DNA from: Symbiodinium sp. CCMP2592
Taxonomy: Eukaryota; Sar; Dinophyceae; Suessiales; Symbiodiniaceae
Reading direction: 5' to 3'
NCBI GenBank assembly: GCA_905221615.1
Contig: CAJNDT010003480.1
Location: 248,001-312,000, forward strand
DNA: 64,000 bases
A program made the translations under genes and the position numbers. Every line of letters begins with the position of its first letter. The first letter of the stretch is position 1. The notes under the pieces were generated by a model. The model ran no database searches, was not told the origin of the DNA, and worked only from the letters and a program-made list of their open reading frames with translations. Shown here piece after piece: positions 88 to 13,944 of the stretch.

Positions 88-3000
88 GATCTGGAAGAGC
101 GCCGACGATTGCACCACGGTGCTCTTCACCTTCGAGCTCTTGGTGCCTAGGCTTTACTTGCCCTAAACATGTTTCAAAGGATCCTTTAAGGGGGTTGGGT
201 TCCTTTAAGAGTCCCCTTCAAAGGCTCCACACCCAAAACCCTAAATCCAATACATCCTAAATCCTAAACCCTGAACCCTAAATCCAAAAGCCTAAGCCCC
301 GCAGCCGTAAACCCTTCATCATGATATGGGTAGTTGTCAAGCTCAAAGTCCCTTTGTGGGTACCCTAAATAATAGGTGCCGTATTATAATAGGGACCCAA
401 AAAGGGACCCGTAATTTTGACAACCACCCGTTTGGTTGCCAGCTCTGAGTCCGATGGCCAGGGCACAGAATTTTATAGGGATCATCATGATTTCAATAGA
501 GTTTCGGGGCTTATTGTAGTATACAGTATACATTATAGGAGCAGTGATGATTTCCACACGGTATTGGGGCCCATTGAAGAACAGAGACTTTGATCGGGAA
601 TATGGGGGGGACACTATTACAAGTTATCCCGACCATCATGTTAAGTCTCGAGCCTCCTGACCAATCGATCACAACTCTTGTCAAAATTATGGTCCCTTTT
701 TGTACGGCACCTACTATGTAGGGTACCCAAGGGACCTTAATTTTGACAACCACTTATATGTTTCCATCAGGCGGCATCCACGCCCTTCTCGTTCGTGCAA
801 TGCCCTCGCAGGCAATGCCCTAGACCTTCCTAGATGCCCATAACATGAGACTGGGGACTTTCCATTCCGGTTCTGCCCAAAGACTCCCAGCATGTGCGCC
901 GTTCCCAGGTACGCATCTTCGAGAAAGGCGTGCCAGCATGCGGTGATCTTCCATCACTCTCCCAAAGGGTCCAAAATATCCATGTAGTAGAATGTAGGGT
1001 TTCCATGTTACGAATTACTAGTATGATTTGGGGAAGTACCCCCCATTACAGTAGCTAGGACCCTTTGGGTCTTTGATAGGTCTTTGCATTGACAGCCAGT
1101 GAGAACATTCATGCGTCCAGCGATCGTTGATTGGTGTCCCTCAAAACCCAAGCCGTGCCAAGCTTACGTAGGCTAGAGTTCGGAAGGATACCTGTTCTTC
1201 GTCGAAGATGACAAGAATTGGAACTTCTTCGATGCTTTAGTCGCCTGGATGCATCACTTCCAGTGTTTTGCGCTGGCTTACTCCAGGACCTCGCAGCCAC
1301 CGAAAGTTGAAATCCCTCACCCCGAACCTTTCGGTGCGCTATGCCCTAAACCCTGAAAGCCCCTGCAATGAACCCTAAACCCAAAGCCCCTAGCATGAAA
1401 AACAGGGTGGGTTTAAATGGAACCTCTCATAGAAGAACAGGACACTCTTCTCAGAGACCTAAACCCTAAGCCCTAAACCCTTTACTCAAAAGGCCCCATT
1501 GCACCTAAAAAACCCTTTACCTGAGGTAGTGGCCATCTCGCTCTTCAGTATGGCTGGAGCCTCAGTTCTCGCTTCGTATCTCCGATGGGTGCAAACAACT
1601 ACAACTAATATGCTCGCAACAGGGGTTTAGGGTTTGAGGTGCAAGGTTTAGAGTTTGGGGGTAGCTAACGGGAGTACAAAATCGTTTAAGTACGATGGTT
1701 CGTGGTGAGAAGAGTGAAGCTGAAGCAACAACACTACTTCAGTGGCAATGGCCATAGCACCACTAGAGATGCACAATGACATGTGCATTGCGGTAAGCCT
1801 GCTGAAAAAACGAAGCAGCTGCAGGCATTGATCAGTTCTACCCCTGTGCAGAGTGCGTAGCTCAAGGACGGAACAGGAAGTACCCAGCTTCGCCGCGGTA
1901 GTAGCTGCTAAAGTTTTAGGAGCAGCAGCGGTGGTACTGCTGCGGTACAAGTAGCGCAGTAGTTAGTACTGTACTGGCGCAGCCGCTCCAGCTGTACTGT
2001 GGTTGTGTCTTAGCAGTACCGATGCTGGTAGTAGTGGTGATAGGGATACTCGTGCAGCATCGTTGTGACTCGTGCAGTATCGCTGTGGGCGTGGCAGTGG
2101 TGGTAGTAGTAGTTCATAATACTAATATAAGTAAAGATAGCGACAAAAGGATAAGAGTAACAAGACGAATAGTAATGCTAATCATCAATGATAATAGCAA
2201 TAACGGTAGTGATACTCAATTTGCAGTTCCTCAGCGGAGATGCAGGACAGTCATGAGAGGCCATGCAGGCCATGAGAGGCGATGAAGGCCATGAAGACGA
2301 TGCCGTAGCTGTGAACGTTCAGAGACCTTTTGCGTAAAGAGTTAAAAGTGCCCCGTTTGTCTTCTGCATTCGATCATCATTCTGTTTTTCTAGCTGGTAG
2401 CGGAGCCCTGCAGACCAGGGCGAGGATGCGCCAGTTCCTTTTCACCGTGATGGCTTTCGCCACTTGTGGGCTGTCTGGAAGCCTCACTGACGACGCGCTG
2501 TCGCTTAGAGCTTCCGCATTCGTCAGTGAGGCCAAAGACGTTAGTCCCAACCGGCAAGGGTCCCCTGGAGAGGGACGATCAGCAACTCCTTCGGCTATCG
2601 ACAAGGTCTTTGGCTTTATGGGAACTGCGCGTATCGTTCGACTTCAGATCCTTTGTATTATTCTTCTTTGTTGTATAGCGTTTACAATGGTGTGCTTCAT
2701 GTATCAGCCGCAGCAAGGTGGTGCGAACAGTTTGCGGTTGCCGCCGCGATGGGATCCCAGTATGGAAGGAAGCTTACCGTTTCGGAACTGGATGCAAGAC
2801 TTGATGCTTTGGACGATTTGCACTGACTTGAATCCTGCTCAGCAATGTGCTGCCATTATATCACAACTTGGTGGAGCTGCACGCGACCTCGCGCGTACGC
2901 TGACACCCGCCGAGGTGTACCAAGGTGGAATTATTAATGGACAGCAGTTGGACCCCGTGTCATTTTTGCTACATGGACTTCAGGTGCGCTTCGCCCCCCT

Positions 3001-6000
3001 GGACGAGGAGAATCGCTTGAGAGCTGCTCAAGATCTTTTGTCCTTCAGTCGAAGAACTGGAGAATCCGTTGACACACTGATCTCAAGGTTCGAGATCACC
3101 AGACAACGGGCCAGAGACGAGGGCGGAGGCGCCATTTCCTTGGAAACAGCTTCTTTGCTTCTTCTTAGAGCTTGTGGAGTGTCTGCAGAGCAATTCCAGT
3201 CCCTCACTCAACCCTTCGGGTATAGGCTTCCTACGACGGAGATGGAGTTCACACAGCTTGGTCATCACCTTCGGCGGATGGGACATATCGTCGAAAGGTT
3301 TCCCAACAATATTGCTTCAGGTCTTCGCCAATCTGCCCACTACAGCCAAGCGTTTGTTGCAGAGGCAGACACCGGTTCATCAACGGGTGAGCATTGGCAG
3401 GAAGCCCCCACTGAGGCGCCGAACCAGTGGGATGCTTTTCACAGCGCTCCGGCGGGAGCCGCCGATGATTGGGCGTATGCTGCGTTGTCGAGAGACCCAG
3501 CCGCTTCAGACACTGAATCGGCAACAAGTTCTGACAACGATGAGGCGCTGCCAATGGAAGACTTGAGCGGGATGGCCCCAGCTGAGGTGGACGAGTACCT
3601 GTTCGGCCAGTACCAACATGCGAAGAAGCGGTGGCGTCGCTTCACAGGGAAGCCAGTGCGTGCTCTCAGGCGCACTTTGCGCAAGAAGGGCAAAGGCAAA
3701 GGTAAGGGAAAGCGCAGCAGCTTTCTGAACATAGGCGAGGCTTTGCAGCAGTCAGCATACTTCCGTGCCAAAGGCAAAGGAGGCAAGAGCTCAGGAAAGG
3801 GGTTTGGGCGCAAGGTCAACCCCACCGGGAGGGATGGCGAGCCATTGAGATGCAGCGTGTGTGGCTCATCATATCACCTCCGAGCTCGATGTCCGCGCCG
3901 CACGGATACCCCTGCGAGTGCACCTGCTGCTGGTTCCCAGCCGCAGTCAGCTGGGCCTTCCTTTCCAGTTCAAAGCTCGGGTTTGCATTTTGCCGCCTTT
4001 GAATCAGATGGATCGTGGGCCAATGTGTTGACGCCGCGTAGCACGGCTTCGGTTGCACCTTCTAGGGGTGGTTCAGTAGTAGATCCTCCTGAGCCCGAGC
4101 CTGCTAGAAACCTCAGACCCAGTGCTCCCCCTTCTGTGCATCACATGTCACCAGACCCCTGGCAGACAGATCAGGACCCATGGATGCAATGGTATCAGGA
4201 AGGTCCCTCGCATGCTCAGCCTTCGGCCCAGCAAGCAGTGCAATCTGAGACCAGGTCCACATGGACGATCCCAGGCATTGGCAATGTTGGGGTTTCGCAG
4301 TCCTTCAGTGAAGTTCTTGGGTTCATAGGTCGTGAGCCTCCGCCTCTTCCTGTCGAGTACCGCCGTGAGTCAACACCCCAAACTTTGCCCACCTGGTTTA
4401 GTGATACCCAGCAAGGCATTGCACAGGCTCAGCAGCGACAGGGCCAGCGCAGGCACTCTGACTTCAGCCGACCATCCTTGCCACAGCAGATGCCTTCTGT
4501 GTTTTCGCGACAGGTGAGTGCACCAGCGCAGAACATGATGGCCAACAGTGCTGTACAGGCAGTTGGCAGTGTAGTGCAACCCACTGCGGCCAGCATGATC
4601 CGGCCTCCGGCGACCCCTGCTTCAGTGAGCATCTTTAGCCAAGTGCATGCCTTCAGACAGGCCAGTGCTCAAGGCTCGTCAGCAGCCTCTCGCGTGGTTG
4701 CACAGACCATCCCTGAAAGCCCAGCTCGCCAGTCGTACGCTGGGCATGTGGCTACATGCACGCTGTGCCTGTCTCAGTTTGAGCCCGGAGAACATGTTGC
4801 CAGGCTTGAATGTGGGCATGTGTTTCATTGCTTATGCCTTGGCGAGATGCTTCTCCACAGCACGGTGCCGGAGAATCAAGAAGGCGTTGTTGTGGACTGC
4901 CCTAACTGCCGCGCTCAAACTCAGGTGTTGAGGTCCTGGCACTACCCGCGTTTCTCTTCAGAGCCTTCAGATTCACCAGCCGCTGCTGTTGCAACTGCGG
5001 GCGCAGCCGGTGTTGCTGAGCCTCCTGTGGAGCCTGAAGACCAGTCGGCGGGTCACCAAGTCCCGATGGAGCCAGATCAGGACAATGCGTACATCATGAC
5101 GCCCGTCGGCCATGACAGCTCTCCCGAGTTCATGACTCCTGAAGCTGACACGTCAGCGTTCCCATGGTGGCCCGTGCCTGAGCCGCCGCAGACTGGGAGT
5201 GGAGATGCCGGTAGTTCCTCCAGCTCCCGTGGGCCGTCGATGGCCACAGCCTACCACAGCAACGTGCGGCTTCCTGATGGCAGGATTGGTCTGCTTGTAG
5301 ACCCAGGTTCTTACGGGAATCTGGTGGGCGAGATGTGGTTGAAGGAGTCCTCAGCCCACATTGCCCGAACGCCTCAGATTGTTCCACGAGCGTCGCCGCT
5401 TCAGGTTGGAGGCGTTGGTAAAGGCGCCCAGGTTTGCACAAACGACTGCAAGCTTCCAATCGCTATCTCGCGGTTGGATGGATCGGCTGCTACAGGTTCC
5501 TTCACCAGCCCAATTGTGCAGCAGAGCGCCTGCCCAGCATTGCTGGGACTACGAGCCCTGACCGAGAACAGAGCCATTCTCGACTTGGGAACAAAGCAGC
5601 TGCACTTCCTTGGTGAAGGTCAGCCAATCTTGAAGCTGCCTCCTGGTTCAGAAACCTTTCAGCTGGAATCGGCCCTGTCAGGTCACCTGCTACTCCCATG
5701 TTCGGAGTTCGACAAGGTGTCTCCTCAAGCCGTTCAGGGAGAGCATCATCTGTTCACGGACAATTCTCAGAATGGTGCGACCTCTGGTGCACAAGCCCCA
5801 TCGCAGCAAGATTCACAACCAGTCTCCTTTGATCAGGTCCTCATTAGCGAGCTCTCCCCAGAGAGTCTGTCTGTGGAAGAGCAGCAATGTGCAGATGTTT
5901 TGGCCGCATTCACATACGAGGAGGCTGCCCAACTTCTTACCAAGCTTGCTGTTAGTTGGTGTGCTACCTCTGTCAGCTCAGAGCGTTTTGAGAATTGCAG

Positions 6001-9000
6001 TGGGTTCTCGCTGTGCTTGGGCATGTACATGCGCGGTGGCATGCAGGGTCTGACCAATGCTACGAGTCAGAGGCCCCAGCTCACCAAGATGTTAGCCACC
6101 ATGATTAGGTCAAGATGCCCTCAAAGCACTTTCACATCGTTGATGCTTAATGTCAATATGCAAGCCCCACTACATATCGACAAGTACAACTGTGGCCAGA
6201 ACATTGTGCTGCCAATCCACATGCCGAGGCATGGTGGTGACCTGTGGGTAGAGCTGCGTCAAGGAGACGTTGTGCAGCACCCCATTGTGGTGCAGAGTCA
6301 CGATGGCCAGCAGCTAGCCGGTCAAGTGATCAAGTTGCAGGCCGGCCAACCAGTGCTATTCAATCCCAAAGCAAAGCACTGCGTCGAGCCGTGGAAGTCA
6401 GGGAACCGTGTCACGCTAGCAGCCTACAGCATCGGTAGCCACCACAAGGTTGAACAGGAGCAACGTGACACATTGCACTCGCTCGACTTTCCTCTTCCAA
6501 GCTCAGTTGCTGCCCAAGCCATAGCTGCAGTATGTGTAGCCCCGTCGCAAGATTCACAGCCAGTCTCCTCTGATCAGGTCTACTCAGCAACAGTGAAGTC
6601 ACCACGCAAAGCATCTTCAACAGAGCAGGCGCCTAGTCGGTCATCTCCCAGGCCAACATGTCTGAGCCTTTTCAAGAAGGTTCTGTTGATCACCATCTAC
6701 CACTCCACTGTTTCGGCTTTCCTCAATCACGGTTGGCAACCTGTCAAGATCAGGCCGCTTGAGCTGCTCAGAGATGGCTTTGACGACTCGCTGAGCCGAA
6801 TCCGCCGCAGCGAGTTCTCTGCTCTATGGGTGGACTTTGCTGACGCACGGCAATTTGCCGGCGTTGAGCGCACATCACAAGTATGCAATCGTCTCAGCAC
6901 CCTCATTACCTGTGCTGATCGTCATGAAGTACCCGTTTTCCTTGCAGCCAGTCGCCGCACAGCATGGCGTCACATTGCCATTGAGAATCTTCTTCAGCAG
7001 CAGAAGTACCACACCAGCCATCATGCCTGGTGTCGCGCCTCAGCAAGTCTCCAGCCCGGAGTTGTCAGCTCTGTGAAGTTGAAAGTGCTGAGTACTGTCC
7101 CGCTTCCAAATCATGATTGCTGCTGTAAGCCTGGCACAGAACATGTGTTCGACCTTGATGGACAAAAGGGCCCAGGCTATGCACGCGCACGTGCAGCAGC
7201 TGAAGCCAAAGCCGTTGGAATGATTGTTGCCGCTCTTGAGCGCGCTCTGGAAGCCAGACGCTCTCGAGAGTCCGCAAAACCATCCGACCCAATTTGCAGT
7301 TCAACGACTTATGTGTGTGCCACCTGCGGCTGCCTGCAAACCAATTCCATATGCACGATTTGTGAAGAGGCATCCTGTATTGCTGCACCCAGTCAGGTAA
7401 TTCCTGTTAGTGGTGCCCACGCAGCCTCCACCGCACCACGAGTGTTTCAAGTTAATGATTCTGGAAACCGCGCTCTCGCTGCACCGGTTGAGCCTCAGCC
7501 TGAGCATCGCAGTTTCCCCACTGAACAAAAGCTACAGCAAAGACTTCGTCGTCAGGAACAACAATCACAAGGCATCGAGCCTACTGTCCGCCGCAAGAAG
7601 AAGGTTGTGGAGCAACACTTCGATGATTGCGGTGATGATCTGTCCAGCCTCAACATTCCCTCTTGTGAGTACTTAGTGGATTGCTCTTCGGATTCAGATG
7701 ACGGTGTATGTGCGGATGAAGCTGTAAGCTGGGCCAGACCACAGCTGAACCTTGCGTCGGTGTGGTCATTCTTGGGATCATCCTGCCCAGATCCTCCCGA
7801 TCTGCATCCACGTGCCATGCTAGCCGCCAGTATCGAGGAGATGCTTCTTGTTCTTAACAATCCTGCTTACCAGAGCTACGGGATTGAGATAGTTGAGATT
7901 TGTGGCGGCTGCGGGCCAACATCGTACTTCTGTGTTCGCCGTCGCCTCCAGTCAGGCCAAGGCTTCGAGTTGATCACCGGCACTGACCTCGCAAGTGCTG
8001 CAGTTCAGCAGCAAATCACTGCATACCTGAATCATGCTAAATCGCTTGTGGTGATAATGGCCCCTGTATGTACACCGCTCAAACCTGCGGCGTCACGAAG
8101 TGAAGCGGGCAACGCTCCTCGTGATGCGCGCGGGGCAATGGTTCATCCACAAATGCGGGAGCTCATGGAGCTCTCCTTGCGCAGTGCAGCTCCGTTGGCT
8201 GCCTTCTGTGGCAAAGTAGCGTTGTATCAACTACAGCACAGCCGTTACTTCCTGATTGAGCAATCGTATCCTTCCAGGTTGTACACCATTGAGCCGTGGC
8301 CTTCAGTCCGTGCCAACCCTGGCAGCTTTAGTGTTGTCTTCCACCAGTGCATGACAGGCCAGCAAGTCAATGGTGCGTTCTGTAAGAGGCCCACTGAGCT
8401 CTTAAGCAACGCAGTGCCAATCCTTCAGAAGTTCTCAGACCTGCAGTGTGATGAATCACACCGCCACACAATTGCATCGCCCGGGCAGGCTGAGATTGCC
8501 ACACGATGGACATATGACATGTGCCAACGACTTGCCAGTGGCATTGAGGCCCTGATATGTCAGCTTGCCAAGCATGACCGCGCTGTGCTCACCACAGCAG
8601 CACCCAACATGACATTCGGCACTGCTGCTTCTTTTCCTTCTGTCGGCAGTGGCCCTGGGGATGAGGGCGAGGTGCCTGTCAGTGCGCCTTGGAGAAAATG
8701 CAAGGGATGCTTGTGGCGTCTCCACAAGTACGATCCTCTCCACACCAGGACACGAGGTGAGTGTAAGCACCCCGACGTTGAGCCTGTTGACTTTGCCTGT
8801 CCTGGATGTGTGGCCCATAAAACACGTGCGGATCCGAGCCACACGTATGGCCCCGACTGCAGGCATGCCCTCACTTCACCGCGCACTTCTGTGCAGCGGC
8901 GGCCTTATGGCCGCAAGCCTGCAAAATCTGAGCCGACCGCAGGACTGCGCGCTTCGGACTTAGGACAACAAGCTGAGAGGCAAGCCGAAGAAGCATCTGC

Positions 9001-12000
9001 AGATGCCCCTGCCGAGCCAGCAAGCAGTAGCACGGACCCAGCTCCTGTTCGCGCTCATCGTGGGCCCGATTTAGAGCCTCGTGAGCGTAGAACATGGTCG
9101 GAGGCAGATGTGCAAACACCGTCACCGTCTGATTGGACCTCGTTTGATGTGCAAGCCTCGTTGCGAGGCCTCCGACATGGAACAGAGGCACAGCGCCGAC
9201 AAATCCTTCGGAAATTACATCTGAGATGGTGGCATTCCTCCACCGACCGCATGACTCGCATCCTTAAGGCCGCAGGTCTCGGCAAAGACATCCTTGATTT
9301 GGTGCCGGCGATTCAGGACACCTGCAAGGTGTGCAGGCATTGGTCCCGGCCTCAACCCGATGCCAAAGCCACCTGCCGTATGGTCGTAGGGTTTAACATC
9401 GAGGTTGAAGGAGACATCATGTTTTGCCGCCATGAAGGTAAGCAAAATGCGGTTCTAGTGCTTGCTGATAGAGGGGTTCGGTGGGTAGCCACGACTGTGA
9501 TTTCGGACCGTCAGACATCAACTCTCCTTACCGCGCTTGACACATGCTGGATCGCAGTCTATGGTCCCATGCAAGTTTTGCTCTTTGACGGTGAGACCGG
9601 CTTGGATGATGACGAGTCCACTGTCTTCTTTCAGCTCAAGGGCATCTGTAAGCGCACGTCGGCGCCAGGCCAGCACACACGCATTGTTGATCGCAAGATA
9701 CAGGTTCTGCGCGACACAGTGCATAAGCTTGGAACCCAACTTCATGAGGAAGGCCTCCCAGTGCCTTTTCCGCGAATCGTAAGTGAAGCAACTTTTGCGA
9801 TCAATGCGCTGTCCTCTCTGAATGGCATGTCACCGTATGCTGCAGTGCTCGGTAGGATACCAGCTATCCTCCCCGGCGATGACACGATGATGAGTGACAA
9901 CGTGCCTGATGACTGCTCTCGGCACATCTTCAGAGTGCGGGAGATAGCCGTTCAGGCCATCGCTGAAGGCACAGCCAGAGAGCGCATGAAGCATGCATTG
10001 CACAGCAAGACTCAACCCGCTGGTGCAGAGTTCGAGTTCAAAGTTGGCCAATCCGTTGATTGGCACCGCCCTCCTGCAAACAAGGACGCTTCTGGTTGGC
10101 GTGGTCCAGGAACGGTGGTTGATCTGTCCAGACTTGAACATGGGCGGATAGGCATCCGCACGAACACTGACCAAGTGATCACCTGCAGATTGCAGGATGT
10201 TCGTCATAGTCTGACATTGTGGTCAGAAGAGCTTTCGACCTACTTCGGTCATCCTGACTACACTTCGCCCGCTGGCAGTCAAGCCAACCATGCTCAATAC
10301 CACGCACAGCAAGTTGTTGACGCCCTGAGAACAGGGACAGTCCTCACTCTGGGCCAAGTACGCACCGCTTCAGGCCATTGGGTAGAATCCGCCCAGACTG
10401 CAAGCCATCGAGCTACACATCAGGCTTGTATGTTTGTTGCAGAGACTGTCTTCTGCCTTCGAAATGTGGTAGCTGTGCGCCTGTGCAGGGCCGTGCGCCA
10501 ACTGACACCACGTGAGGAGTTCAGCTCTTCATTATGCGTGTACTGGATGCAAGAAGGCTCCAAACAGCTAAGCTTCTTGCACGCTGATGGGTCCAAGCTG
10601 TCAGTTGTTGACTTGCTCGGGCAAACATGGTCAGACTTTCGTTGCATCCAATTTCTGTGTGTCCCTGATGAAGAAGAGTGGGCAACAGTACTGCGTTGGT
10701 CTGTGCCAGCTCCTAGTGAAACGCTAGAGGCGTCGCCTGAAAATGAGACGCAGAGTCAAGGGAGTGCAGCTCGCTTGTCAACGATCCCTGAAGGATCAGA
10801 TGAGTCTGAAAGCCACTCCTCTGAGCCAGTGAGCTGGACGGCTCTGTGTGAGGTCTTTGGTGATTCAATCAAGGGCAGTGATCGTGAGGCTCTTGAGCAA
10901 GCATATGCAGCATGCGCGTCCGAGGATGCCTCTGACAGGCCTACTGTGCTCTCCATCCCAGACCTCATTCACCATGTTCACGGCACAGTGTCCATGGATC
11001 TAGAGATCCCTTCTTGGCAAGAAGTCTGCATGAATCAGCAAGAGTCAGAGCAATCTGTTTCCTTTGATGCGACGCTTGCAGCGTGCGACACTGAGTCTAC
11101 ATCATTTCTTGCCCTTGATTCTGACGACACTGGGACATATGTAGCTGTCGAAGCTTATGGAGACCAGTGCAAGCTTTTCGAAGGCTTGGACCGTCTGCCC
11201 CACGCAGACGAACATGTGGAGCTGCGCATCTACGAAACCCACTGCAGAAAGGTCATCATCGAGCGTTCCGATGATTTGCTCACCCCTGAAGAAGTGGAGC
11301 AAAACAAAGCTGCAGTGACGCAGGCCATCCTGGATGAGCTCAAGACGTGGGAAGGCTATAAGTGCTTCTGTCGGCGACCGCGGAAGTCAGCTCCCTGCGT
11401 CATCGATGTTCGATGGGTGTTCAAATACAAAATCGTCAAAGGCGAGCGCAAGATTCGTGCAAGATTGTGCTTGCGTGGATTCAAGGAATCAGGCGCAGAT
11501 GATCAGTCAAACTTCGCCGCTACAGCATCACGGTTCAGCCAGCGTGTCATAGTATCAGAATGTGCAGTGCGCGGCTGGTGCATAGCCAGCTCTGATGTGC
11601 CCAAGGCTTGCTTGCAGGGGATCACGTATCAAGAGCTATCTGAAGCTACTGGCAAACCTATGCGTGATGTTAGCTTTGAGCTCACCGGCGATGGTCTCAA
11701 ATGTCTTCAAAGCATGCCCAACTTCAAAGGTTTTAATCCAGCCACAGAGGTTTTACATTGCTTGAAGCCCGGGACGGGATGCAGAGACGCACCTCGATGC
11801 TTCAGCATGAAACTTCGAAAAGTGACCAGGGAGTTTGGCATGGTGTGCTCGACCATTGACCCTGAGCTTGAAATGCTCTTTGATGAGCGCGGAACCGAAT
11901 TGTTGATGGCAATCATCAAGCATGTCGATGATTTGAAAATGATAGGTCCGCGTAAGCTGATTGAAGAGTTTGTGGCTCACCTCTGTCGAGCTTTCGGCAA

Positions 12001-13944
12001 GCTTGAGATCGATTGGAAGGACTTTACCTTCTGTGGTGTTCACCACCTGCAGGATGATGAAGGAAGTATCCATCTTGATCAGGTGAAGTTCCTTGCCGCC
12101 TGTAAGGTGATTTCAGATCCAGTTGCACTCAATGGCAAGGCTGATACCCTCTTGCCAGAAGCTGCGCGTAGGTTGTTTCTGAGCTTGTTGATGACAGTAG
12201 CGTATGCGCTGCTGACCCGACCTGATGTCGCGGTCTTTGTGGTTGCATTGCAACGCGAGTCACACAAGGCCCAGGTGCAACATGTGAAAAGATTGAATGT
12301 CCTCTTGAAGTGGTTGCAGCGAAACCCTCGCAAGATGTCTTATCCGACTATGCAGTACCCGGATACGTTGTTGCAGATTTCGGATTCTTCCTACAGAGCA
12401 AAGGCCGAAGACGGCCTGTCAGTGCGTGGGTTGGTCAGCTTGCGTGTGTGCTCAACTGCTATTCATGAGGGATGTCGTGATACAACTTGTCACTTGGTTG
12501 ACTTTGCAAGCAAAGCCCAGAGACACGTGACAAGAAGCACCTTCAGTTCGGAGCTCTTCGCGGCTACAGATGCGCTTGATATCGGGCTCCTCCACAGTAT
12601 CGTGCTTTACGAGCTTCGTCATGGAAAGGTGTCCATGGACGTAGCACGGCAGCTGATTGAAGGCAGTATGCCAAGCAGCGATGTCAACCTTGACCTTGTC
12701 ATTGACGCCAAGTCAGTAAGCTCTGCCGTCACCGCTCCGAATGTCAAAGTGCCAGCTGAGCCCTCGCTTTTACTTCACGTGGCTTGGGTGCGCTCACTGT
12801 TAGCCAAAGGAAGATTGCGGAAGCTCTTTTGGGCAGACACGCGATCTATGGTGGCCGACGCTATGACTAAGGGCAGTGCACCGAGAGAGTTGATTGTGGC
12901 AGCAATGGCAGGCACACTTTTGATGCCACAGCCATACCAGCAGCAAGTGATTCTTGGATGACCTGTGCAGTTGCTACGCATCTGCACACCGCAAAACCAT
13001 CCGACTCAATTTGCAGTTCCTCAGCGGAGATGCAGGACAGTCATGAGAGGCCATGCAGGCCATGAGAGGCGATGAAGGCCATGAAGACGATGCCGTAGCT
13101 GTGAACGTTCAGAGACCTTTTGCGTAAAGAGTTAAAAGTGCCCCGTTTGTCTTCTGCATTCGATCATCATTCTGTTTTTCTAGCGTGATTGTGGTAGTAA
13201 TAAGTAGTAGCACGAGAGGGAGCTGATGTATCTCCCAGAAAGACGTATCCAGATCCGAAATCATCGGGACCCTGAGGGGGGTAGGGGGAGGGGGAAATTT
13301 GGGGGGCGGGGGTAGGAGACTTGCTCTGAAGTTTCCAGGCCTTCCCAGAGCCTCCAAAACCTCCTAACAAGGGAATATACATTAAAACATAATGGGATTT
13401 CCCTAATGTGACTTAAGGCATATTCCTTTCATTAAGGGTTTTTGGATGCTCTGAGTTAAGCCGTAAACGCCCTGAACCTTCCAACGCCTGAAAATCTCGG
13501 AGGTCATGTCCCAACAGGCGGCGGCTTCAGCTAATGGCCAGGCGCCGAATGGTGCACCCCGGCTAGTTTGACCTTGGCGGCAGCTTCTTGTTGAAGCCTC
13601 GAACGCTGAAGAGTTGAAGCTAAGAACTTACTGGAATTTTATGTACTTTTGAGGGTCTAGGTAGACCTCCAATCCACCTGAGCAGCCCAAAGCAGCCATG
13701 AGCTCAGCCGAGCCAGGCGCGGCCATGCAGAAGATGAAGGCACACTGGATGGCATTCCATGGTGGAGAGTTTGGACACGTTTCAGAATGCGAGGACACCG
13801 TAGGATGGCCCACCTCTGGGGGTAGGGGGTACACGGAGGATCATGGGACTTAGTAGGCACCCGTTGAGCCCTGTAGCCTTTCTCGTTAGGTCCTGCGGAC
13901 ACTGCGCTTGCTCCGGCTGCTGCGGCTCTTTCGGGTCTTCAAAG
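88..13944 (+). CDS. Voltage-gated cation channel, partial (S2-S4 exons), interrupted by a retrotransposon
   Basis: Five phase-compatible exons: 88-142, 909-927, 1187-1242, 1526-1588 and 13890-13944. The first three encode S2 and the S2-S3 loop (TVLFTFELL, VRIFEKG, then NWNFFDALV with the conserved S3 Asp). The fourth encodes the rest of S3 (VVAISLFS). The fifth is a textbook voltage-sensor S4, LRTLRLLRLLRLFRVFK, with Arg or Lys at every third residue (six gating charges). All acceptors are AG|G; donors are GT, GC, GC and GT, and phases agree at each junction. The family forms voltage-gated Na+/Ca2+/K+ channels in the plasma membrane; ion selectivity cannot be judged because the S5-pore-S6 exons were not found. 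The gene is cut off at the left edge (S1 missing). The 12.3-kb intron 1589-13889 contains the copia element in the same orientation. A possible next exon is 14278-14317 (VNRFVELLLNSAT), which would suit the S4-S5 linker. Confidence 0.83.
326..430. repeat. Foldback element family B, copy 1
   Basis: Inverted ends of the form GGGTGGTTGTCAAAATTA (here slightly changed), then GTCCCTTT...AAAGGGAC, with a core around TAGGTGCCGTA. It lies in the first visible channel intron. Other copies: 671-755, 26024-26136, 28394-28500. Confidence 0.75.
671..755. repeat. Foldback element family B, copy 2 (short)
   Basis: Same inverted ends and core as 326-430, with part of one arm deleted; also in the first channel intron. 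Confidence 0.65.
2209..2213. repeat. Target-site duplication, left copy
   Basis: GTGAT directly abuts the 5' LTR and recurs at 13185-13189 directly after the 3' LTR. Five bases is the usual copia duplication length. Confidence 0.9.
2214..2394 (+). repeat. 5' LTR of the copia element
   Basis: 181 bp, matching 13004-13184 without a difference that I could see. It contains a short internal repetition of ATGAGAGGC and ATGAAGGC words near 2252-2300. An ATG inside it (2330) opens the long polyprotein frame. Confidence 0.95.
2330..12961 (+). CDS. Copia polyprotein: Gag, RING, protease, 2OG-oxygenase-like, methyltransferase-like, integrase, RT, RNase H
   Basis: 3543 codons; residues are numbered from the ATG at 2330, which lies inside the LTR. 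Met33 (2426) just after the primer-binding site is the more likely start. Order: hydrophobic segment ~104-126; Gag ~130-345; Lys/Gly-rich tract ~443-494; CCHC knuckle 508-521; RING-H2 810-860; aspartic protease DPGS at 991; 2OG/Fe(II)-oxygenase-like fold ~1180-1390 (H1282, D1284, H1350, R1360); a Cys-rich finger ~1662-1682; C5-methyltransferase-like ~1830-2110 (EICGGCG 1856, Cys1914, Glu1977); a Cys/His cluster ~2124-2180; integrase zinc site H2297, H2302, C2332, C2335; integrase D2362, D2420 and D2454, the third being Asp where Glu is usual; RT D3089 and HVDD at 3200-3201; RNase H D3352, E3408, D3459, D3510. All RT and RNase H catalytic residues are present. The core identification is firm; the oxygenase and methyltransferase calls rest on motif pattern only. 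Confidence 0.95.
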   Translation: MRKELKVPRLSSAFDHHSVFLAGSGALQTRARMRQFLFTVMAFATCGLSGSLTDDALSLRASAFVSEAKDVSPNRQGSPGEGRSATPSAIDKVFGFMGTARIVRLQILCIILLCCIAFTMVCFMYQPQQGGANSLRLPPRWDPSMEGSLPFRNWMQDLMLWTICTDLNPAQQCAAIISQLGGAARDLARTLTPAEVYQGGIINGQQLDPVSFLLHGLQVRFAPLDEENRLRAAQDLLSFSRRTGESVDTLISRFEITRQRARDEGGGAISLETASLLLLRACGVSAEQFQSLTQPFGYRLPTTEMEFTQLGHHLRRMGHIVERFPNNIASGLRQSAHYSQAFVAEADTGSSTGEHWQEAPTEAPNQWDAFHSAPAGAADDWAYAALSRDPAASDTESATSSDNDEALPMEDLSGMAPAEVDEYLFGQYQHAKKRWRRFTGKPVRALRRTLRKKGKGKGKGKRSSFLNIGEALQQSAYFRAKGKGGKSSGKGFGRKVNPTGRDGEPLRCSVCGSSYHLRARCPRRTDTPASAPAAGSQPQSAGPSFPVQSSGLHFAAFESDGSWANVLTPRSTASVAPSRGGSVVDPPEPEPARNLRPSAPPSVHHMSPDPWQTDQDPWMQWYQEGPSHAQPSAQQAVQSETRSTWTIPGIGNVGVSQSFSEVLGFIGREPPPLPVEYRRESTPQTLPTWFSDTQQGIAQAQQRQGQRRHSDFSRPSLPQQMPSVFSRQVSAPAQNMMANSAVQAVGSVVQPTAASMIRPPATPASVSIFSQVHAFRQASAQGSSAASRVVAQTIPESPARQSYAGHVATCTLCLSQFEPGEHVARLECGHVFHCLCLGEMLLHSTVPENQEGVVVDCPNCRAQTQVLRSWHYPRFSSEPSDSPAAAVATAGAAGVAEPPVEPEDQSAGHQVPMEPDQDNAYIMTPVGHDSSPEFMTPEADTSAFPWWPVPEPPQTGSGDAGSSSSSRGPSMATAYHSNVRLPDGRIGLLVDPGSYGNLVGEMWLKESSAHIARTPQIVPRASPLQVGGVGKGAQVCTNDCKLPIAISRLDGSAATGSFTSPIVQQSACPALLGLRALTENRAILDLGTKQLHFLGEGQPILKLPPGSETFQLESALSGHLLLPCSEFDKVSPQAVQGEHHLFTDNSQNGATSGAQAPSQQDSQPVSFDQVLISELSPESLSVEEQQCADVLAAFTYEEAAQLLTKLAVSWCATSVSSERFENCSGFSLCLGMYMRGGMQGLTNATSQRPQLTKMLATMIRSRCPQSTFTSLMLNVNMQAPLHIDKYNCGQNIVLPIHMPRHGGDLWVELRQGDVVQHPIVVQSHDGQQLAGQVIKLQAGQPVLFNPKAKHCVEPWKSGNRVTLAAYSIGSHHKVEQEQRDTLHSLDFPLPSSVAAQAIAAVCVAPSQDSQPVSSDQVYSATVKSPRKASSTEQAPSRSSPRPTCLSLFKKVLLITIYHSTVSAFLNHGWQPVKIRPLELLRDGFDDSLSRIRRSEFSALWVDFADARQFAGVERTSQVCNRLSTLITCADRHEVPVFLAASRRTAWRHIAIENLLQQQKYHTSHHAWCRASASLQPGVVSSVKLKVLSTVPLPNHDCCCKPGTEHVFDLDGQKGPGYARARAAAEAKAVGMIVAALERALEARRSRESAKPSDPICSSTTYVCATCGCLQTNSICTICEEASCIAAPSQVIPVSGAHAASTAPRVFQVNDSGNRALAAPVEPQPEHRSFPTEQKLQQRLRRQEQQSQGIEPTVRRKKKVVEQHFDDCGDDLSSLNIPSCEYLVDCSSDSDDGVCADEAVSWARPQLNLASVWSFLGSSCPDPPDLHPRAMLAASIEEMLLVLNNPAYQSYGIEIVEICGGCGPTSYFCVRRRLQSGQGFELITGTDLASAAVQQQITAYLNHAKSLVVIMAPVCTPLKPAASRSEAGNAPRDARGAMVHPQMRELMELSLRSAAPLAAFCGKVALYQLQHSRYFLIEQSYPSRLYTIEPWPSVRANPGSFSVVFHQCMTGQQVNGAFCKRPTELLSNAVPILQKFSDLQCDESHRHTIASPGQAEIATRWTYDMCQRLASGIEALICQLAKHDRAVLTTAAPNMTFGTAASFPSVGSGPGDEGEVPVSAPWRKCKGCLWRLHKYDPLHTRTRGECKHPDVEPVDFACPGCVAHKTRADPSHTYGPDCRHALTSPRTSVQRRPYGRKPAKSEPTAGLRASDLGQQAERQAEEASADAPAEPASSSTDPAPVRAHRGPDLEPRERRTWSEADVQTPSPSDWTSFDVQASLRGLRHGTEAQRRQILRKLHLRWWHSSTDRMTRILKAAGLGKDILDLVPAIQDTCKVCRHWSRPQPDAKATCRMVVGFNIEVEGDIMFCRHEGKQNAVLVLADRGVRWVATTVISDRQTSTLLTALDTCWIAVYGPMQVLLFDGETGLDDDESTVFFQLKGICKRTSAPGQHTRIVDRKIQVLRDTVHKLGTQLHEEGLPVPFPRIVSEATFAINALSSLNGMSPYAAVLGRIPAILPGDDTMMSDNVPDDCSRHIFRVREIAVQAIAEGTARERMKHALHSKTQPAGAEFEFKVGQSVDWHRPPANKDASGWRGPGTVVDLSRLEHGRIGIRTNTDQVITCRLQDVRHSLTLWSEELSTYFGHPDYTSPAGSQANHAQYHAQQVVDALRTGTVLTLGQVRTASGHWVESAQTASHRATHQACMFVAETVFCLRNVVAVRLCRAVRQLTPREEFSSSLCVYWMQEGSKQLSFLHADGSKLSVVDLLGQTWSDFRCIQFLCVPDEEEWATVLRWSVPAPSETLEASPENETQSQGSAARLSTIPEGSDESESHSSEPVSWTALCEVFGDSIKGSDREALEQAYAACASEDASDRPTVLSIPDLIHHVHGTVSMDLEIPSWQEVCMNQQESEQSVSFDATLAACDTESTSFLALDSDDTGTYVAVEAYGDQCKLFEGLDRLPHADEHVELRIYETHCRKVIIERSDDLLTPEEVEQNKAAVTQAILDELKTWEGYKCFCRRPRKSAPCVIDVRWVFKYKIVKGERKIRARLCLRGFKESGADDQSNFAATASRFSQRVIVSECAVRGWCIASSDVPKACLQGITYQELSEATGKPMRDVSFELTGDGLKCLQSMPNFKGFNPATEVLHCLKPGTGCRDAPRCFSMKLRKVTREFGMVCSTIDPELEMLFDERGTELLMAIIKHVDDLKMIGPRKLIEEFVAHLCRAFGKLEIDWKDFTFCGVHHLQDDEGSIHLDQVKFLAACKVISDPVALNGKADTLLPEAARRLFLSLLMTVAYALLTRPDVAVFVVALQRESHKAQVQHVKRLNVLLKWLQRNPRKMSYPTMQYPDTLLQISDSSYRAKAEDGLSVRGLVSLRVCSTAIHEGCRDTTCHLVDFASKAQRHVTRSTFSSELFAATDALDIGLLHSIVLYELRHGKVSMDVARQLIEGSMPSSDVNLDLVIDAKSVSSAVTAPNVKVPAEPSLLLHVAWVRSLLAKGRLRKLFWADTRSMVADAMTKGSAPRELIVAAMAGTLLMPQPYQQQVILG
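2395..2410 (+). promoter_or_regulatory. Primer-binding site, initiator-Met tRNA type
   Basis: TGGTAGCGGAGCCCTG begins at the first base after the 5' LTR. TGGTAGC followed by GAG is complementary to the 3' end of eukaryotic initiator-methionine tRNA (GCUACCA end), the usual primer of copia elements. The exact host tRNA is not in this window. Confidence 0.75.
7272..7302 (+). repeat. Internal copy of the 3' LTR junction
   Basis: 31 bases of coding sequence match 12989-13019, the junction between internal sequence and the 3' LTR, with one mismatch. It lies in the polyprotein just before the Cys-rich finger. Confidence 0.85.
13004..13184 (+). repeat. 3' LTR of the copia element
   Basis: Second copy of the 181-bp LTR, followed immediately by the target duplication GTGAT at 13185-13189. 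The sequence just upstream (12989-13003) is not purine-rich, so a classical polypurine tract is not visible. Confidence 0.95.
13185..13189. repeat. Target-site duplication, right copy
   Basis: GTGAT directly after the 3' LTR, partner of 2209-2213. Confidence 0.9.

Follow-up and report, generated by a model that had tools for sequence, protein, structure and literature searches.

Symbiodinium retroelements of the LINE and DIRS types carry DNA methyltransferases (DNMTs), and Copia elements are said to be without DNMT (PMC5890265; this paper and the others given by accession are cited for the parts of their text that were available). A second paper is worded differently: in streptophytes and dinoflagellates, it places DNMT3 in elements of the Copia and DIRS types (PMC12344493). 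In dinoflagellate DNA, 5-hydroxymethyluracil (5-hmU) replaces 12-68% of thymines, with 12% in Symbiodinium microadriaticum, and in Breviolum it shows enrichment at repeats (PMC11071213). Transposons of fungi that bear TET were the subject of a 2025 study, which states, in the available part of its text, that no retrotransposon encoding TET/JBP was found (PMC12730594). We analysed a stretch of 64,000 nt from Symbiodinium sp. CCMP2592 (contig CAJNDT010003480.1), referred to as a whole as the window, which lies in a 1.1-Gb assembly and whose positions are used below. The preliminary description had proposed that a retrotransposon polyprotein in the window contains both a 2-oxoglutarate (2OG) oxygenase-like and a C5-methyltransferase-like (MT-like) domain, and had taken DNMTs in dinoflagellate retrotransposons as precedent. 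This precedent holds for LINE and DIRS; for Copia, the two papers above differ. We consider it likely that the element is a recent, intact-looking Copia retrotransposon whose polyprotein carries a TET/JBP-like oxygenase, its active site complete, together with an MT-like domain whose catalytic Cys is being lost in the Copia lineage. In this joint reading, both domains would be descendants of DNA-base-modifying enzymes. The terms 2OG and TET occur 0 times in the main text of PMC5890265. Among the literature titles and abstract openings covered, which included few subscription papers and no preprints, none described a TET-like domain within a retrotransposon of dinoflagellates.

Conservation and predicted fold of the oxygenase domain

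The motifs of the two domains were located in a single open reading frame (ORF). PLHIDKYN (6167-6190; H1282, D1284), KHCVEPW (6374-6394; H1350) and NRVTLAAYS (6404-6430; R1360) were found in the oxygenase domain, and EICGGCG (7895-7915), APVCTP (8060-8077; C1914) and FLIEQ (8249-8263) in the MT-like domain, as first described. Motif spacing as the sole evidence was rejected. When the residues of the ORF were shuffled 500 times, 84% of the shuffles contained the loose pattern HxD-(40-90)-H-(8-11)-R, with a mean of 1.72 per shuffle compared to 2 in the ORF itself. The observation was above chance because of residue conservation and predicted fold in the oxygenase, and profile homology for both domains. 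The oxygenase assignment was upheld on these grounds and narrowed to a TET/JBP-like enzyme, while its argument from spacing by itself was within chance.

Conservation was read from an alignment (A1) that combined the window with 19 of 30 loci. Only 145 of 4,836 first-look candidates in the genome were scored, and the copy number is given as at least 145 scored matches. A1 was built without L001, which is the window itself, the near-duplicates L003, L007, L011, L014, L015, L016, L018 and L024, as well as L021, whose segment contains a stop, and L022. Both His, the Asp, the Asn at +5 and the Arg were kept in all 20 rows, and the invariant catalytic residues persisted in rows whose identity to the window was 33-45%. 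Tyr or Phe at R+6 was conserved in the aligned rows, and His at R+8 was not. Ratios of nonsynonymous to synonymous rates (dN/dS) were obtained from 14 pairs of loci; three pairs were informative for the 2OG domain and gave approximately 0.02. Near-identical pairs held few changes, with dN/dS up to 0.91 (L020/L025: 1 synonymous, 3 nonsynonymous), and the other pairs were saturated or nearly so. The three informative values showed purifying selection on related 2OG domains.

The predicted model of the 2OG region contained a 2OG-Fe(II) double-stranded beta-helix with HxD...H...R, so the fold whose absence would have spoken against the first description was found. A TET enzyme was the nearest solved fold by VIA, with NgTET1 at the top of the structure list by approximately 2 Z units, whereas the own order of Foldseek placed NgTET1 26th and a bacterial 2OG oxygenase first among PDB entries. 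AspH entries appeared in the Foldseek list from rank 20, and VIA gave none among its 50 listed matches.

In TET structures, a base-contacting Asn is located at +5, a base-stacking aromatic residue at R+6 and a cytosine-reading His at R+8. The +5 Asn and the R+6 aromatic residue were kept in window-type domains, the R+8 His was not, and TET2 aligned with an Asn at +5. It is possible, though on balance unlikely, that the oxygenase oxidises 5-methylcytosine (5mC) to 5-hydroxymethylcytosine or further and so undoes host methylation, a role that has been suggested for TET+ DNA transposons of fungi. The TET-like fold and the two conserved positions agree with such an activity, as do the mostly CG-methylated Symbiodinium genomes (PMC5890265) and the fungal anti-silencing precedent (PMC12730594). 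However, the cytosine-reading His is not conserved, and the abundance of 5-hmU in dinoflagellate DNA points to thymine as a substrate (PMC11071213). Because of these two points, conversion of thymine to 5-hmU would be the first-choice reaction, and oxidation of 5mC the second.

The same pairing in a second retroelement class

A search of the genome with Tet_JBP (PF12851, cut-off 34.9 bits) gave four loci (L045-L048) at 29.2-29.6 bits, all under the cut-off, compared to none in 14 control genomes. L045 scored 29.2 bits (E 6.2e-7), and the stretch around it is called L049. Its Pol frame (2738-6562 of L049) contained a 2OG domain, then a C5-methyltransferase-like domain with intact motif IV directly after it, then reverse transcriptase (RT)/RNase H. 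RVT_1 was weak in L049 (E 0.005) and was found at E<=0.1 in 23 of the 31 homologues scanned (A5, from 92 homologues of the Pol region). The upstream ORF was tyrosine-recombinase-like by eye but unconfirmed, with no Pfam match and E 0.94 to two PDB chains named Integrase. A DIRS-like retroelement would combine such a recombinase with an RVT_1-type RT, and L049 may be one.

The L049 2OG domain was related to the Copia 2OG profile with hhalign E 1.1e-21, and with E 6.3e-36 when 21 rows were used. It has AHRDxHNM in common with human TET2 (match E 0.29). Both domains were matched in 25 of the 92 homologues, the MT-like domain only in 66 and the 2OG domain only in 1. At least 140 2OG positions were aligned in 19 of the 25 two-domain proteins, the remainder being partial, down to approximately 40 residues; with P0097, which is without the MT part, 20 rows reached this length. 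In 21 aligned 2OG rows, the Asp, the +5 Asn and the Arg were invariant, and the two His were kept in 19 and 20 rows. The pairing, which had been singled out in the first description, thus recurs in the Pol of a different retroelement, although some of the 2OG matches are partial. The order was 2OG-MT in 22 of the 25 proteins and reversed in three (P0042, P0043, P0068), which may reflect reshuffling of the cassette.

These homologues bear on the family of the oxygenase. We regard it as improbable that the 2OG domain is an amino-acid or protein hydroxylase of the Asp/Asn (PF05118) or PKHD type, acting on the capsid of the element or on a host protein and not related to DNA. Several results weigh on that side and count against a TET/JBP-like enzyme. 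Among Pfam families, PF05118 ranked first for the domain in the window (E 0.00025) and was found in 9 of the 20 A1 members, with 21.4 and 21.9 bits lying just under its 22.6-bit cut-off. NCBIfam PKHD/YbiX models matched one row of 20, that of the window, and there the C-terminal part (E 6e-4). The first Foldseek entry was the bacterial oxygenase given above, and four listed viral structural matches carry the name of an Asp/Asn-type hydroxylase. However, the VIA list was led by NgTET1, and the homologue in the RVT_1-type element matched Tet_JBP, has the TET2 motif and directly precedes a C5-methyltransferase-like domain with intact motif IV. Tet_JBP itself had no match in the window and was weak in 2 of 20 Copia rows. 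At E<=0.1, it was found in 6 of 19 members of the 2OG alignment A6 and in 3 of 31 of A5, none over the cut-off.

Sequence searches of the PDB gave 11 rows with A1, none credible. The top match of A6, a histidine-kinase sensor (E 6e-5), was rejected as not credible, since it consisted of scattered stretches of 24-46 positions; TET2 was second (E 0.15). No relatives were confirmed in viral contigs, and PHROGs gave weak, inconsistent matches only.

The methyltransferase-like domain

The window-type MT-like domain was compared with a family of 91 rows, consisting of the L049 query and 90 of the 91 homologues matching the MT part (one was too short). The result was hhalign E 2.1e-17, and PPCGT and ENP are nearly invariant in this family. 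C5-methyltransferase entries were 50 of 50 in the VIA list for the predicted model, among the matches listed, and Foldseek gave no match at E<=1e-3. The listed VIA matches agree with the fold that the first description had expected here. It is very unlikely that the domain is a chance Rossmann-like look-alike. That possibility draws on the lack of a Foldseek match at this threshold and of a DNA_methylase match in the Pfam scan of the domain, and on a direct comparison of A3 with A4 that was not significant, all of which speak against descent from a C5-methyltransferase; the homology to the 91-row family and the VIA list stand against it. A3 combined the window with 7 of 10 sister loci (without L003, L007 and L010). 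A4 contained 5 of 7 upstream regions; L041 was excluded because of its broken frame, and L044 had diverged too far for alignment by eye. The L045 MT domain alone gave a probability of only 46-49 against A3 or A4, and clear homology was seen only with the 91-row family.

PVC was found in the window and in P0002 and P0003, and the catalytic Cys was not conserved across the family. The Cys after the motif-IV Pro was in place in two of seven sister copies (PRC, PYC), shifted in one and absent in four. Nor was it present at that place in any of the five aligned elements with the second Copia arrangement described below. Because the Cys was lost or shifted in most sister copies, activity of the MT-like domain is doubtful. 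The proposed C5-methyltransferase was supported in descent and, more tentatively, in predicted fold.

The loss of this Cys in many copies would also fit neutral carriage of both domains as captured host genes without benefit, which we consider highly improbable and which is already disfavoured for the 2OG domain, given dN/dS of approximately 0.02 in three pairs, catalytic residues invariant at 33-45% identity, and retention at two places within Copia polyproteins as well as in another class of retroelement.

Proposed function

The strongest reading of the sequence data is a mobile pyrimidine-modification cassette, of which the oxygenase would be the maintained half. The polyprotein would be translated whole and then cut by its own protease. 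The oxygenase would flip a pyrimidine and hydroxylate its 5-methyl group on the DNA of the element, either the cDNA or the inserted copy, and the resulting mark would tune host silencing of the element. The preliminary description had gone further and suggested, hypothetically, that the element both writes and edits modifications on its own or host DNA and thereby evades silencing. The MT-like domain probably began as the partner in a two-step cassette that methylates and then oxidises, and this cassette appears still intact in the RVT_1-type retroelement that the genome also contains. The MT-like domain of Copia now more likely binds DNA or a cofactor, or is structural. A wider proposal, that the cassette passed between RVT_1-type and Copia elements and that the oxygenases borne by these retroelements (at least 145 scored matches in this genome) are an ancestral or current source of the unusually abundant dinoflagellate 5-hmU, is speculative and we hold it to be rather unlikely. 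A paper by Li et al. in PNAS in 2024 reportedly names a dinoflagellate 5-hydroxymethyluridine enzyme in its title.

If the cassette reading is true, TET/JBP-like oxygenases are encoded by retrotransposons of two classes, one of them Copia, unlike the result of the 2025 fungal survey (PMC12730594). The oxygenase would be paired with a DNA-methyltransferase relative in organisms with 12-68% of thymine as 5-hmU (PMC11071213). Whether host or element marks dinoflagellate transposons would become a biochemical question on one domain of 230 residues.

Copia relatives and organisation of the element

Positions 2214-13184 form one long terminal repeat (LTR) retrotransposon with an identical LTR pair and a 5-bp direct repeat, GTGAT, on both flanks. 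Since both LTRs are identical, the insertion is recent. Gag-like, zinc-knuckle and RING parts come first in the ORF, followed by the protease-like motif and the 2OG domain, then domain X and the MT-like domain, and last a weakly matched integrase and RT/RNase H; labels without a profile match were assigned by eye. The coordinates are collected in the table. We took the likely primer-binding site TGGTAGCGGAGCCC to resemble the 3' end of initiator tRNA-Met, CSVCGSSYHLRARCP to be a CCHC-like zinc knuckle and LVDPGSYGNLVG to be a protease-like motif.

Features of the element in the window (residues are those of the ORF)
Feature	Position	Strand	Remark
Target-site duplication GTGAT, left copy	2209..2213	.	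directly 5' of 5' LTR
5' LTR	2214..2394	+	181 bp, identical to 3' LTR; termini AC...GC
Single open frame, 3,543 codons	2330..12961	+	first ATG at 2426
Likely primer-binding site (TGGTAGCGGAGCCC...)	2395..2410	+	position adjoining 5' LTR
CCHC-like zinc knuckle (CSVCGSSYHLRARCP)	3851..3895	+	motif located in frame
RING-H2 finger, residues 809-861	4754..4912	+	PF13639 E 4.3e-8, over its cut-off
Protease-like motif LVDPGSYGNLVG	5294..5329	+	motif located in frame
2OG-Fe(II) oxygenase domain, TET/JBP-like, residues 1171-1397	5840..6520	+	alignment, predicted fold, profile homology
HxDxxN (H1282, D1284, N1287), iron ligands and the +5 Asn	6173..6190	+	invariant in 20/20 A1 rows
H1350 (second iron-ligand His) to R1360 (2OG-binding Arg)	6377..6409	+	invariant in 20/20 rows
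Conserved domain X, approximately residues 1445-1620	6662..7189	+	bounds approximate; between 2OG and MT-like; by eye
C5-DNA-methyltransferase-like domain, residues 1803-2082	7736..8575	+	profile homology and predicted fold
Candidate catalytic Cys C1914 (PVC)	8069..8071	+	not conserved among sister copies
Integrase core, weak	9404..9673	+	rve E 0.016, below cut-off; upstream of HVDD region
Reverse transcriptase active-site region (HVDD)	11915..11941	+	by eye
3' LTR	13004..13184	+	181 bp
Target-site duplication GTGAT, right copy	13185..13189	.	directly 3' of 3' LTR

The Pfam scan of the RT part of the window gave no match. RVT_2 (PF07727) was found in the homologue P0003 (E 2.3e-7, 31.1 bits against a cut-off of 31.6), which is 53% identical to the window in the 2OG region, and was over the cut-off in all three more distant elements scanned (L019, L025, L028). 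The window element is, by sequence relationship, a Copia-type LTR retrotransposon, its RVT_2-type RT being established through relatives only.

A survey of related Copia loci for the domain order had been suggested. Sister loci share the order of the window, and other Copia loci have the 2OG domain after integrase-like sequence. As read by eye, the domain lies between protease and MT-like domain in L002, L004, L006 and L009, as in the window. It directly follows integrase-like sequence in L017, L019, L021, L025, L026 and L028, with RT-like sequence downstream in five of the six; L021 is cut by a stop. In this second arrangement, the sequence downstream of the domain matched RVT_2 over the Pfam cut-off in L019, L025 and L028, and an rve match under the cut-off lay upstream in L019.

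The nearest scored relative in the assembly (L002) was only 45% identical to the window in the 2OG domain, despite the fresh-looking insertion, and the ENA sequence P0002 was 78% identical. Either the window lineage is low-copy or recently arrived, or there are gaps in assembly or scoring. Symbiodinium is the name attached to several of the protein homologues, and Durusdinium to one, which makes a dinoflagellate host likely.

Further features were observed in the element. The LTR termini are AC...GC instead of the usual TG...CA, though the 5-bp target duplication fits exactly. A 31-nt near-copy (30/31 identical) links 7272-7302, inside the ORF in mid-element, with 12989-13019 at the junction of internal region and 3' LTR. 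Central second plus-strand starts occur in some LTR elements, and the copy at 7272-7302 could be one, though it is not polypurine. The RING-H2 finger between the gag-like part and the protease is a ubiquitin-ligase-like domain in a retrotransposon polyprotein and is listed for P0002 and P0003 too. A 34-nt direct repeat (5806-5839 and 6547-6580, 94% identical, peptide QDSQPVSxDQV) brackets the 2OG domain, and it looks as if the domain was inserted or the flank duplicated. Domain X has the blocks LELLRDGFDD...WVDxxDxRQFAGxERT...AASRRxAWRH, common to the window-type copies read by eye (L002, L004, L006, L009); the best match in a Pfam scan of 6566-7699 was not significant (E 0.22).

Comparison with known systems

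Fungal TET+ DNA transposons (Kyakuja, others and some Helitrons) are likewise mobile elements encoding a TET/JBP dioxygenase, with a proposed role in anti-silencing or pyrimidine hypermodification (PMC12730594). However, they are DNA transposons, whereas here the domain is fused into retroelement polyproteins with a C5-methyltransferase-like domain. SymbioLINE-Dnmt and SymbioDIRS-Dnmt3 are Symbiodinium retroelements with a DNMT in or beside Pol (PMC5890265). Here, in contrast, a Copia element carries a TET-like and a degraded DNMT-like domain. Compared to NgTET1 and the TET/JBP family, the domain has approximately 17% identity, passes no Pfam cut-off and is embedded in a polyprotein, and the base-reading His at R+8 is missing in the window-type domain. 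Phage hypermodification cassettes, which combine C5-methyltransferase, TET/JBP and glycosyltransferases, show a similar pairing of C5-methyltransferase and TET/JBP-like enzymes on a mobile genome (PMC12730594). In phage cassettes these are separate genes, whereas here both are domains of one retroelement polyprotein.

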